Shown in pieces: positions 1,177 to 3,530 of a stretch of 64,000 nt of DNA (position 1 is the stretch's first letter; every line of letters starts with the position of its first letter). A model generated the notes under the pieces. It ran no database searches, was not told where the DNA came from, and saw nothing but the letters and a program-made list of their open reading frames with translations. This DNA comes from Verrucomicrobiia bacterium (GTDB lineage Bacteria > Verrucomicrobiota > Verrucomicrobiia > Limisphaerales > UBA8199): positions 1 to 64,000 of the forward strand of contig DASYZB010000132.1 of assembly GCA_035946615.1 (NCBI GenBank), given 5' to 3'. The position numbers were made by a program, and so were the translations under genes.

Positions 1177-1233
1177 TCACCCGCGCAGGCGTACAAAACA
1201 ATTCGCGTGCCAAAAAGCAATTTCTTATCAATT
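1177..1233. repeat. 57-bp direct repeat, left copy
   Basis: Positions 1177-1233 match 3317-3373 at 56 of 57 bases (single difference at 1212, A against C). The two copies bracket the attC-like cassette region with the same orientation, 2140 bp apart. A short inverted element (CGCGAAT / ATTCGCG) is present in the right copy but only half conserved here. It may be a target duplication, a mobile-element end or the scar of a recombination event; the sequence alone does not decide. Confidence 0.85.
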
Positions 1234-1238
1234 ATCAA

Positions 1239-1472
1239 TTGACCGGTTCGGCATCTTCTGGTATGCTTGAATCGGATGCATCCGCTAAAGCGGCGCTCGT
1301 GCCCTGTCGCACTGTGGAGAGGCTCCAGCGAGAAGGACACCCTGCCGCGCAGGCGAAGCGGCTGGTGAAAGCCGTGATAGACCTTGAGGAAGGAAAGGTG
1401 GTCGATTATGTTAAACTTTGGTGTCACCTTGTGCGATTTTTGCCTTATTCTCCCCCGGGGGCGGAGAGGTGA
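1239..1472 (+). CDS. possible small-protein remnant upstream of tatA
   Basis: A 77-codon frame beginning with TTG (an internal ATG is at 1263). The middle part, R-L-Q-R-E-G-H-P-A-A-Q-A-K followed by L-V-K-A-V-I-D-L-E-E-G-K-V-V-D-Y, reads like a genuine amphipathic helical protein, while both ends look like non-coding read-through. It overlaps the start of the following TatA-like frame by 55 bases. I do not recognise the family. It may be a truncated gene, or simply chance; the region 1104-1417 otherwise holds only the direct repeat. Confidence 0.25.
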   Translation: MTGSASSGMLESDASAKAALVPCRTVERLQREGHPAAQAKRLVKAVIDLEEGKVVDYVKLWCHLVRFLPYSPPGAER

Positions 1473-1837
1473 TTTTGATGCTTGCTCTGGTTCTGATTCT
1501 GCTTGGGGGCAGAAAGCTGCCGGAGATTGCTCGGGGGTTGGGCCAAGGAATTTATGAATTTCATAGGAACGTGAGGGAACTCAGTGAGGATCTTGATCAG
1601 GAGGCCCGCGACGCCGGGGAGAGTTTAGGTGGAATTTTTGGAAAGGCCGCTGCCCAGGCACTGACACCTGAAAATCAGGTTGCGGAACTTTACGATCCAG
1701 CCGCCTTTCAGGATTCTCGCGCCGAGAAGCGGAGAAAGTTTCGAGGCTTGGTCCGCCTGTATCGCCTGATTTGCCATCGCCTTCGCAGGTGCTTTGATGC
1801 GTTCATTCGGGCTTTTGGGTCTGGAGGGAAACGATGA
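1418..1837 (+). CDS. tatA: TatA/TatE-like twin-arginine translocase subunit
   Basis: TatA forms the pore-like ring of the twin-arginine pathway, which exports folded proteins across the inner membrane. The 139-residue product has the expected order: a short N-terminal membrane helix (E-V-I-L-M-L-A-L-V-L-I-L-L-G), the hinge G-G-R-K-L-P-E, an amphipathic helix with G-L-G-Q-G-I, then a charged cytosolic tail that is basic at its end. The start is uncertain: TTG 1418 has no nearby ribosome binding site, whereas ATG 1408, in another frame, follows AGGAAAGG (1391-1398) by 9 bases, so a one-base indel near 1420 may have separated the true start from the body. It lies between the left direct repeat and the first attC-like element and could itself be a cassette gene. 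Confidence 0.7.
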   Translation: MVSPCAIFALFSPGGGEVILMLALVLILLGGRKLPEIARGLGQGIYEFHRNVRELSEDLDQEARDAGESLGGIFGKAAAQALTPENQVAELYDPAAFQDSRAEKRRKFRGLVRLYRLICHRLRRCFDAFIRAFGSGGKR

Positions 1838-1846
1838 GAAATGAAA

Positions 1847-1938
1847 AGCCCGAACGACCGCAGGCAGCGGACCCCGCGAGTCTGTCATGTTTGCATTCTG
1901 CACCTGTGGCGCAGGGGGCCTATACGGAGCGTTCGCCG
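1847..1938 (+). repeat. attC-like element A (degenerate)
   Basis: About 92 bp opening with GCCCGAACG and closing with GCGTTCGCC, which pair imperfectly. Its left arm (ACCGCAGGCAGCGGACC, 1856-1872) is nearly identical to the left arm of element E at 3211-3227, and it shares the internal GTGGCGC block (1906-1912) with elements B and E. The right arm is weakly complementary, so this copy is probably degenerate. The attC assignment rests mostly on similarity to elements B and E. Confidence 0.45.
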
Positions 1939-1967
1939 AACGGCAACCACGGCGATATTTATCAATC

Positions 1968-2168
1968 ATGAAATGTAATATCTGCGGCGCGGAAGAGGCG
2001 AGCGTCCACATTACGCAGACGCACCCCGCAGGGGGAAGCCCGTCTGCGTTTCATTTGTGCGAGGCATGTGCCAAGAAAATGGGCGTCAACGACCCGACAG
2101 GCTTTTCGCTTGCAGACCTACTCATCGCGGTGAGAGCGTCACAGCGGACAAATCAGAAACAAGAGTAA
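1968..2168 (+). CDS. small McsA-like zinc-finger protein
   Basis: A 66-residue protein starting at ATG 1968, 29 bp after attC-like element A. It carries two CxxC knuckles, C-N-I-C near residue 3 and C-E-A-C near residue 35, with H-I-T-Q and H-L-C between them, followed by F-S-L-A-D-L-L. This matches the N-terminal zinc-binding part of the McsA / UvrB-linked family, which in other bacteria modulates protein kinases or binds regulators. Here the UVR motif part is absent, so it is a stand-alone finger. A longer frame from 1887 exists, but it would read through the repeat. Its position between two attC-like elements suggests a cassette gene. Confidence 0.65.
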   Translation: MKCNICGAEEASVHITQTHPAGGSPSAFHLCEACAKKMGVNDPTGFSLADLLIAVRASQRTNQKQE

Positions 2169-2171
2169 GGA

Positions 2172-2369
2172 GTGTTGGAAAAAATGGAGCACTTCAAGGC
2201 GAACCACCGCAGGGAGCAGGCCCCGCGAGTCCGTCCTGCTTACATTTTAAGCAAGTGGCGCGGTGCCGCTGCTACGGATCGTTGGGGCATATGGTTGCGT
2301 GCGCTAGTCGTCGGCATAGCCTTCGCGTTTCTGTATTCGGCCATCTGGGGCGTCCGCCGCAAACTATGA
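2172..2369 (+). CDS. possible small membrane protein in a cassette
   Basis: A 65-codon frame from GTG 2172. The upstream two thirds read through attC-like element B and are probably not real protein. The end, from about 2289 to 2369, encodes one hydrophobic stretch (A-L-V-V-G-I-A-F-A-F-L-Y-S-A-I-W-G) followed by V-R-R-K-L, a plausible single-pass segment with a positive cytosolic tail. A TTG at 2295 would give a 24-residue peptide. It sits alone between elements B and C, in the position of a cassette gene. Confidence 0.3.
   Translation: MLEKMEHFKANHRREQAPRVRPAYILSKWRGAAATDRWGIWLRALVVGIAFAFLYSAIWGVRRKL
2198..2288 (+). repeat. attC-like element B
   Basis: About 91 bp. The left arm (GCGAACCACCGCAGGGAGCAGG, in two parts from 2199) pairs with the reverse complement of the right arm ending at 2288 (GCCCCAACGATCCG, then GCAGCGG). 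Both arms keep AAC / GTT at the core position, and the left arm has additional unpaired bases, as integron attC sites do. It shares the CCGCAGG, GCGAGTCCGTC and GTGGCGC blocks with elements A and E. The 3' core box GTTGGGGC deviates slightly from GTTRRRY. Confidence 0.55.
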
Positions 2370-2371
2370 TT

Positions 2372-2465
2372 CACGAACCCAACCATCCAGCTTCAGGCAA
2401 CGGCCCGGCTGCGTCTCTGTTCGATTTTGAACGCCCCAGACGCGCCGTGCCTGAGCCGGTTCGTG
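2372..2465 (+). repeat. attC-like element C (divergent)
   Basis: About 94 bp with perfect terminal complementarity: CACGAAC at 2372-2378 and GTTCGTG at 2459-2465. Inside, GCTTCAGGCAACGGC pairs with the complement of GCCGTGCCTGAGCC apart from single extra bases in the left arm. The size, position and bulged pairing fit attC, but the outer boxes do not match the usual RYYYAAC/GTTRRRY, and its sequence differs from A, B and E. Confidence 0.4.
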
Positions 2466-2487
2466 AGGCGGCATCACCGCGGCTGTC

Positions 2488-2796
2488 ATGAACAATGGCT
2501 TTTGCAAATTTCCTCAGACGCGGTTCTGGCACGAGGTTTGTCAGCATCTCGCGGAGCTTCCAGGCGTCGCAGTCACGGAAGCTACCGACGCTCCGGTTGT
2601 TGGCTCGTGGATCGATTTCACTTTTCGTGATCATTCCTTTACCATTAATGCGGAGTGTGGAGAATTCGTGTTTTTCGTCGAGGACCCAGGCTGCCCCGAG
2701 CCCGTGAGCGCTGAGGTCAGGGCGTACTTTGAGCCGTTCTTTGCAGAGCGGACAGACCACGGAGACAGCGGTGACATCACTTTGAGACGAGTATGA
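2488..2796 (+). CDS. 102-aa hypothetical protein (cassette-type)
   Basis: ATG 2488 opens a 102-residue acidic cytosolic protein with no signal peptide or membrane segment. Visible features are a tryptophan-containing start (T-R-F-W-H-E-V-C-Q-H-L), a middle with alternating hydrophobic residues (W-I-D-F-T-F-R-D-H-S-F-T-I-N), and E-F-V-F-F-V-E-D-P-G-C-P, which suggests a small alpha/beta domain. I do not recognise the family. Small orphan proteins of this size are typical of chromosomal integron cassettes. It begins 22 bp after element C and ends 42 bp before element D. Confidence 0.6.
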   Translation: MNNGFCKFPQTRFWHEVCQHLAELPGVAVTEATDAPVVGSWIDFTFRDHSFTINAECGEFVFFVEDPGCPEPVSAEVRAYFEPFFAERTDHGDSGDITLRRV

Positions 2797-2838
2797 CTAC
2801 GCCCAATGGAGCGGCGATTGAGGGATGAACCAGAGAGC

Positions 2839-2931
2839 GCCGAACAATCGTTTTGGAGCGGATGCTGACCGGGCATTGTGCTCATGTTCGGTGCTTGATC
2901 CGCCCGGCACGGCTCAAAACGGTCGTTAAGT
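2839..2931 (+). repeat. attC-like element D
   Basis: 93 bp from GCCGAAC (2839-2845) to GTTAAGT (2925-2931). The 3' box fits GTTRRRY exactly. The left arm AACAATCGTTTTGGAGC pairs with the complement of the right arm (AACGACCGTTTTGAGCC) with one extra base in the left arm. Internal sequence is unlike A, B and E, as expected when cassettes of different origin are joined. Confidence 0.6.
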
Positions 2932-2944
2932 TTGGAGGGAGATT

Positions 2945-3195
2945 ATGACACGAAAGGAGATCAATCAGGCAGAGTGGAGCAATCCAAAAACTGGTCTGGG
3001 CCCAAATGGTGCAAGCTGTATTTCAGCCGACGAGACATACGCGCATGGGTTCCAAAGTGGCACCAGGCTTTTGGGTGGACGATCAACATGGGAAACGCCC
3101 GTGGAGCCGTTTGCCTTGTCGGAGTTGTGATTGCTGCGATTGCATTTGTGGTGCTTTCAAACATTATTGTGCTGAACTTAATTGCAAGAAAATGA
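2945..3195 (+). pseudogene. DUF5808-like membrane protein, frameshifted
   Basis: ATG 2945 is well placed after GGAGGGA (2934-2940) and starts M-T-R-K-E-I-N-Q-A-E-W-S-N-P-K, but this frame closes at 3130 with an unlikely tail. From about 2986 another frame, open to 3195, continues convincingly as N-W-S-G-P-K-W, Y-F-S-R-R-D, W-V-P-K and F-G-W-T-I-N, matching the DUF5808 pattern, then one hydrophobic helix (V-V-I-A-A-I-A-F-V-V-L) and a basic end. Adding a single A to the A-run at 2986-2990 would join the halves into about 83 residues. This is therefore either a frameshift mutation or a homopolymer error in the assembly. It occupies the last cassette position, between elements D and E. Confidence 0.65.
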
Positions 3196-3202
3196 CCATT
3201 GA

Positions 3203-3292
3203 GCTTAACCACCGCAGGCAGCGGACCTCGCGATTCCGCGCCGTGTGCATATCACGCCAGTGGCGCGGGGCCGCTGCTGCGGGGCGTTAGGC
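3203..3292 (+). repeat. attC-like element E (best match)
   Basis: 90 bp from GCTTAAC (3203-3209, fits RYYYAAC) to GTTAGGC (3286-3292, fits GTTRRRY). The arm ACCGCAGGCAGCGG pairs with the complement of CCGCTGCTGCGG, leaving a single extra G in the left arm, the extrahelical base that sets strand choice in integrase recombination. A second inner stem, CCGCGCC / GGCGCGG, surrounds the loop. All features of a functional attC are present by eye. Confidence 0.72.
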
Positions 3293-3316
3293 CAGGACAA
3301 AATGACTAATCGCGAA

Positions 3317-3373
3317 TCACCCGCGCAGGCGTACAAAACAATTCGCGTGCCCAAAAGCAATTTCTTATCAATT
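3317..3373. repeat. 57-bp direct repeat, right copy
   Basis: Second copy of the repeat at 1177-1233 (56 of 57 identical). Here it runs directly into the transposase remnant at 3375 and starts 24 bp after attC-like element E, marking the right border of the cassette patch. Confidence 0.85.
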
Positions 3374-3374
3374 T

Positions 3375-3530
3375 GGCTGGCTCGAGGAAGACCTGGCGAA
3401 CCGACCCAAGAACGACCCGCTTAAACTTGATATGGCCGCTCGCTTGCGCCGGCAAACCACCCTGTCGATCAAAGCGATTGCAGCTCGGGTTCACCTTGGC
3501 AGTTCCAAAGCGGCCAAGCGGGTCATGTGA
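3375..3530 (+). pseudogene. 3' stub of a REP-associated (Y1) transposase
   Basis: A frame ending at TGA 3528-3530 encodes G-W-L-E-E-D-L, N-D-P-L-K-L, A-A-R-L-R-R-Q-T-T-L-S-I-K-A-I-A and H-L-G-S-S. This is the C-terminal helix-turn-helix extension commonly attached to REP-associated tyrosine transposases in Verrucomicrobiota. The catalytic HUH and tyrosine part is missing: upstream lies only the 57-bp repeat. It is therefore a remnant that can no longer mobilise anything. Confidence 0.6.

Follow-up and report, generated by a model that had tools for sequence, protein, structure and literature searches.

A cluster of attC cassettes without detectable integron integrase in a Verrucomicrobiia draft genome

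The array and its flanks

Contig C132, of 100 kb, belongs to the draft assembly (5.6 Mb, 161 contigs, 96% complete) of an uncultivated Verrucomicrobia bacterium. The array is located near the beginning of this contig, with 1.8 kb between it and the contig end on the upstream side, and was analysed within a 64-kb window, a term that here denotes the whole stretch of DNA under analysis (64,000 nucleotides). Between 1.8 and 3.3 kb of the window, five palindromic elements (A to E) of 90-93 bp each, all in a single orientation, alternate over approximately 1.45 kb with small plus-strand ORFs, giving about four to five cassettes that each close with an attC hairpin. The five inverted-repeat elements of the initial annotation are real, with a length of 90-93 bp where 90-94 bp had been given, and their coordinates stand except for element C, which begins at 2377 and not at 2372 when placed by the covariance model R1. 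This model, described below, is the source of the bit scores and of the E-values for attC sites in the following list.

1178..1233, plus strand: dispersed repeat, upstream copy (56 bp), 98% identical to the copy at 3318
1418..1837, plus strand: TatA/B-like ORF, 139 aa (Pfam TatA_B_E, E 1.6e-12), with its stop 10 bp before attC A
1848..1937, minus strand: attC A, 24.0 bits (E 3e-4 in the window), with a decayed stem and an off-consensus R' box GTTCGCC
1968..2168, plus strand: McsA-type zinc-domain ORF, 66 aa (NCBIfam McsA, E 6.3e-7), a stand-alone N-terminal domain
2172..2369, plus strand: small ORF whose start precedes attC B and whose frame runs through this site into the B-C cassette, with a hydrophobic C-terminal part
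2198..2287, minus strand: attC B, 37.4 bits (E 5.7e-8), with R'' GGCGAAC and R' GTTGGGG
2377..2469, minus strand: attC C, 65.1 bits (E 1.2e-15), with R'' ACCCAAC
2488..2796, plus strand: cassette ORF, 102 aa, with no match in Pfam or NCBIfam
2839..2931, minus strand: attC D, 35.8 bits (E 1.6e-7), with R'' GCCGAAC and R' GTTAAGT
2932..3195, plus strand: DUF5808-like cassette ORF, 87 aa (E 0.05, below the gathering score), with a C-terminal membrane segment
3203..3292, minus strand: attC E, 64.2 bits (E 2.1e-15), with exact R'' GCTTAAC and R' GTTAGGC
3293..3317, plus strand: start of the next cassette, 25 bases, with an ATG at 3301, cut off by the dispersed repeat
3318..3373, plus strand: dispersed repeat, downstream copy (56 bp), in direct orientation with the copy at 1178
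3373..3530, plus strand: C-terminal part of a REP-associated (Y1-type) transposase remnant, matching the 3' part of a frame on contig C59 at 92% identity

The upstream flank of the array is a minus-strand gene region. Downstream, the repeat interrupts the next cassette 25 bases past attC E and is followed by the transposase remnant, of which a longer copy is present on C59 (L185; a 360-aa open frame) and another fragment on C27. The dispersed repeat occurs in some 30 copies in the genome. Its 5' edge is sharp, with a T before nearly every copy (T^CACCCGCGCAGCGTACAAAACAATTCGCGTGCCAAAAAGCAA), and its 3' end is ragged and AT-rich (TTTCAATTTCAAT...); in five copies a further common stretch (AGTGGCGGAAAATGCTCGAAAATGCGCCCGGACAC...CTCCTT) lies ahead of the repeat, and weak relatives of the repeat are found in another genus (G138). 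The two copies that bracket the array have in common an extra G (GCAGGCG) that no other copy examined contains, as though one of the two had given rise to the other.

Identification of the elements as attC sites

The covariance model R1 was built from 18 attC candidates situated beside IntI genes of relatives at eight loci, and contains no sequence from the window. The training sites were aligned as bottom strands, and a structure worked out manually for one of them (L083:2201-2293) was applied to the alignment. In this alignment 88% of the cells are paired, two-sided changes occur in 18 of the 25 stem pairs, and the covariation score is 0.54, whereas shuffles give 0.16 and slid structures no more than 0.10. 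A bulged (extrahelical) T is invariant, with a second bulge six bases away; two extrahelical positions at this spacing are the published attC pattern (PMC2727003). When R1 was run over the full 64-kb window with filters off, its top five places were exactly elements C, E, B, D and A, in that order, all on the minus (bottom) strand, and the best place outside the array scored 12.2 bits. The initial annotation had named, in advance, a lack of attC covariance-model hits together with a lack of similar elements elsewhere as a ground for refutation; the model instead matched five times in the window, at approximately 15 further sites in the genome, and hundreds of times in the family.

The box motifs agree with this assignment. 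Element E has exact RYYYAAC and GTTRRRY boxes on its two sides and element D an exact 3' (R') box, both as initially claimed, and the bottom strand of E carries an extrahelical T and C, six bases apart. The AAC/GTT cores are also present in A, B and D, and element C has AAC but GTG (R' GTGAGGC, with a degenerate third core base); in all, the R' boxes are degenerate in three elements, A, B and C. In 300 dinucleotide shuffles of 1791-3320, boxed palindromes reached a maximum of 8.6, compared with 13.2 for D and 13.3 for E. Bottom-strand folding gave z-scores of -0.98 (A), -2.2 (B), -2.8 (C), -1.6 (D) and -2.3 (E), only a modest separation of the elements from shuffles, and the bottom strand is not favoured in E; folding energy being weakly discriminating, it is the R1 model that carries the argument for attC. 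At the scale of the whole genome, element A has an E-value of 0.03 and is marginal when taken alone. An Rfam scan of the array region gave nothing at E up to 1, and a DNA similarity search of 1800-3400 against the organism's own genome returned the dispersed repeat and a McsA paralogue only, with the other attC sites not recovered. On structural and sequence grounds, the five elements are genuine attC sites in a common orientation.

Elements A, B and E have sequence blocks in common (CCGCGA...GTGGCGCGG), which had been proposed to mark a lineage-specific attC family. The blocks do not define a private family: close matches adjoin IntI in G209 (L065:2200-2292) and in G129 (L072:15096-15188), and one such match lies in an array of another family, so that the blocks belong to a lineage-wide attC form.

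Cassette ORFs

The ORFs at 1968-2168, 2172-2369 and 2488-2796 are as initially annotated, and the fourth (2945-3195) is not a single frame. Ahead of them, the TatA/B-like ORF is preceded immediately by a GTTRRRY site (GTTAAAC, 1410-1416) and may represent the first cassette, or else a chromosomal gene that adjoins the array. Its position fits a cassette, but clear flanking attC sites were not found for long-form TatA-like relatives elsewhere.

The product first described as a zinc finger can be specified as a stand-alone McsA N-terminal domain. Most genomes of the order contain the longer form of McsA, and the organism's own chromosomal paralogue, on C62, is full-length (182 aa). A stand-alone relative (74 aa, 58% identical) occurs in G192:C39, where it is preceded by attC-like boxes (GAAC...GTTCGCC) that match those of element A; an R1 search of this locus did not recognise an attC. 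The start of the following small ORF of the array (2172-2369; MEHFKAN) resembles the start of a small ORF located after the McsA-like gene of G192 (MKHLKAN).

The 102-aa protein had been described as an orphan, and indeed matches no Pfam or NCBIfam family; it does, however, have relatives in two other genomes of the order (G261, 48%; G169, 34%), and the one in G169 (UBA6176) lies inside an array of eight attC sites, with an attC on either side. It is thus the ORF found as a cassette elsewhere, the corresponding evidence for the McsA-like ORF being the attC-like boxes in G192 only. No attC was found near the relative in G261. Further relatives are present in two records of Methylovulum sp. (L183, L184), a gammaproteobacterial methanotroph, a distribution that suggests a possible transfer between phyla; neither the model nor a boxed-palindrome search found attC within 3 kb of them.

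The resemblance of the last product to DUF5808 is weak, with a match under the gathering score and a split reading frame: the natural-looking start, ATG 2945, is out of frame with the DUF5808-like part, which is open from 2932. Because the two lie in different frames, the gene is probably broken, or else the sequence contains a small assembly error. Ten other genomes of the order contain relatives of this ORF, and clear attC sites were not found near these.

Integrase search and attC sites in the genome and family

A search of the whole assembly with the integron-integrase family model returned no IntI, the best match reaching 88.5 bits against a cut-off of 265. The matches below the cut-off are fragments of XerC and XerD (the two best) and one other tyrosine recombinase, and an alignment with IntI of three relatives shows that XerC and XerD lack the IntI-specific insertion that these relatives have. 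Searching the attC-bearing stretches of the genome by tblastn with the IntI of relatives gave nothing better than E 0.78, and no IntI relic. An intI gene with the specific additional domain, as a complete integron would contain, is thus not found in the assembly, and we infer that IntI is truly absent rather than undetected, whether it was lost or never possessed. The attC sites are dispersed through the genome in groups of 1-5, with 18 sites on 8 contigs detected by R1 at E < 0.03; unfiltered searches added two more, namely D itself and one on C121, for a total of approximately 20.

IntI is widespread in the order, scoring over the family cut-off in 91 of the 293 genomes (96 of 293 at E <= 1e-60). 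The family was sampled with 13 genomes, with no second member of the genus among them and some of them sources of R1 training sites; every one contains attC matches, and six contain IntI. The numbers of attC matches are 69, 47, 9, 85, 94 and 22 in the six IntI-bearing genomes, and 16, 1, 2, 4, 24, 5 and 3 in the seven IntI-less ones, a difference with an exact one-sided p of 0.004 (kinship being ignored, completeness varying and the genomes few), suggesting that attC number follows IntI presence within the family. One family member, G156 (86% complete), with 24 attC matches and no IntI detected, is a larger case of the same situation as that described here.

Interpretation and alternative explanations

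The term CALIN denotes a group of clustered attC sites with no integron integrase (Cury et al., summarised in PMC8618304). The array very probably belongs to this class, as initially proposed, consisting of genuine attC cassettes in a Verrucomicrobia genome without detectable integron integrase: five attC sites recognised by the relatives' model are co-oriented with cassettes between them, and IntI is absent from both the window and the assembly. Decay is visible in three of the R' boxes (A, B and C), in the stem of A, and in one cassette ORF, which suggests that selection for mobility has ended for part of the array. The likeliest account of such a partly decayed array is that it was left behind by an integron lineage whose members in sister genera remain active.

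In integron recombination, attC is bound by IntI as a folded bottom strand, which is cleaved within the R' box and then linked to attI or to a second attC. Each cassette of the array consists of a small ORF followed by attC, whose single-stranded bottom strand folds into the hairpin that would serve as IntI substrate, and the array itself would have been assembled by IntI in the past. Lacking a resident IntI, the cassettes would be immobile in cis, and could move only if the genome acquired an IntI, or once their DNA was taken up by a cell possessing one. CALIN cassettes are generally usable by IntI supplied in trans (PMC9668308).

Three origins have been proposed for CALINs, namely insertion at off-target sites, loss of intI, and rearrangement (PMC8618304). 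The first of these, in which IntI acting in trans dropped the cassettes at secondary sites, is a possible alternative to IntI loss beside the cassettes. The distribution of attC in groups of 1-5 on 8 contigs is in keeping with it, as is the GTTRRRY-like GTTAAAC that precedes the first possible cassette, and the route has been put forward for CALINs (PMC8618304); yet GTTRRRY occurs by chance about once per kb, and rearrangement via dispersed repeats would likewise scatter fragments. It is unlikely, by comparison, that IntI is present in the organism and missing from the draft, with the array forming part of a living, dispersed chromosomal integron. The assembly is in 161 contigs and 96% complete, the array is near a contig end, as are several other attC clusters (e.g. 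on C116 and C15), and six family members have IntI. On the other hand, both flanks of the array are non-cassette (the minus-strand gene region upstream, the repeat and transposase remnant downstream), several attC sites are decayed, and the genome has some 20 attC, fewer than most IntI-bearing genomes of the family.

The direct 56-bp repeats around the array, with the extra base that they alone have in common among the copies examined, could be taken as the ends of a 2.2-kb composite unit that was moved in or duplicated by homologous recombination. A repeat copy lies near only one (C91) of the eight other attC-bearing stretches checked, most copies of the repeat are without cassettes, and the transposase remnant that follows the second copy is not a continuation of the sequence that precedes the first. 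The repeat-flanked composite was rejected on these grounds and is very improbable; in our reading, the repeats reflect damage or rearrangement of later date and did not carry the array. A resemblance to attC of unrelated palindromes, REP-like or terminator-like, is scarcely credible, even with a REP-associated transposase remnant adjoining the array and an element A that folds no better than many shuffles. R1 gives E 1.6e-7 or better for four of the five elements, so that B-E are refuted as mere palindromes, elements and ORFs alternate regularly in a single orientation, and a relative of one cassette ORF lies inside a bona fide array (G169). Returning to the CALIN, a broader scenario is distinctly unlikely, namely that cassettes persist long-term, scattered in small groups, without a resident IntI, that their exchange in trans with sister genera possessing an IntI continues, and that the dispersed repeats help to move whole arrays.

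Relation to known systems and significance

CALINs are a common type of element, and the listed integron carriers already include Verrucomicrobiota (PMC8618304). The present array resembles other CALINs in its five co-oriented attC, the small ORFs between them, and the absence of an integrase both nearby and in the assembly, and differs in nothing basic, being located in a Verrucomicrobia draft, partly decayed, and bracketed by a dispersed repeat. With the sedentary chromosomal integrons of relatives (G209, G200, G067, G192 and G129) it has in common the same attC form of approximately 93 bp, with its stem, extrahelical positions and core motifs; these integrons differ in having IntI (with the specific insertion in the three aligned) and, in most cases, more attC. 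One cassette protein family of the array is common to the array in G169. A further parallel is provided by the IntI-less attC remnants of Treponema phagedenis, in which attC were likewise kept after apparent loss of intI and relatives keep intI, and which belong to another phylum and have a different attC form (PMC3607928).

The kind of element is ordinary and well known, and the principles of integron biology are unchanged by it. The 11 published taxon-specific attC models do not include Verrucomicrobiota (PMC8352920), and the sites described here add a well-supported attC set from this little-studied lineage, together with a small within-family comparison of attC number with IntI presence, and connect a 102-aa protein family, for which no other annotation exists, with integron cassettes.
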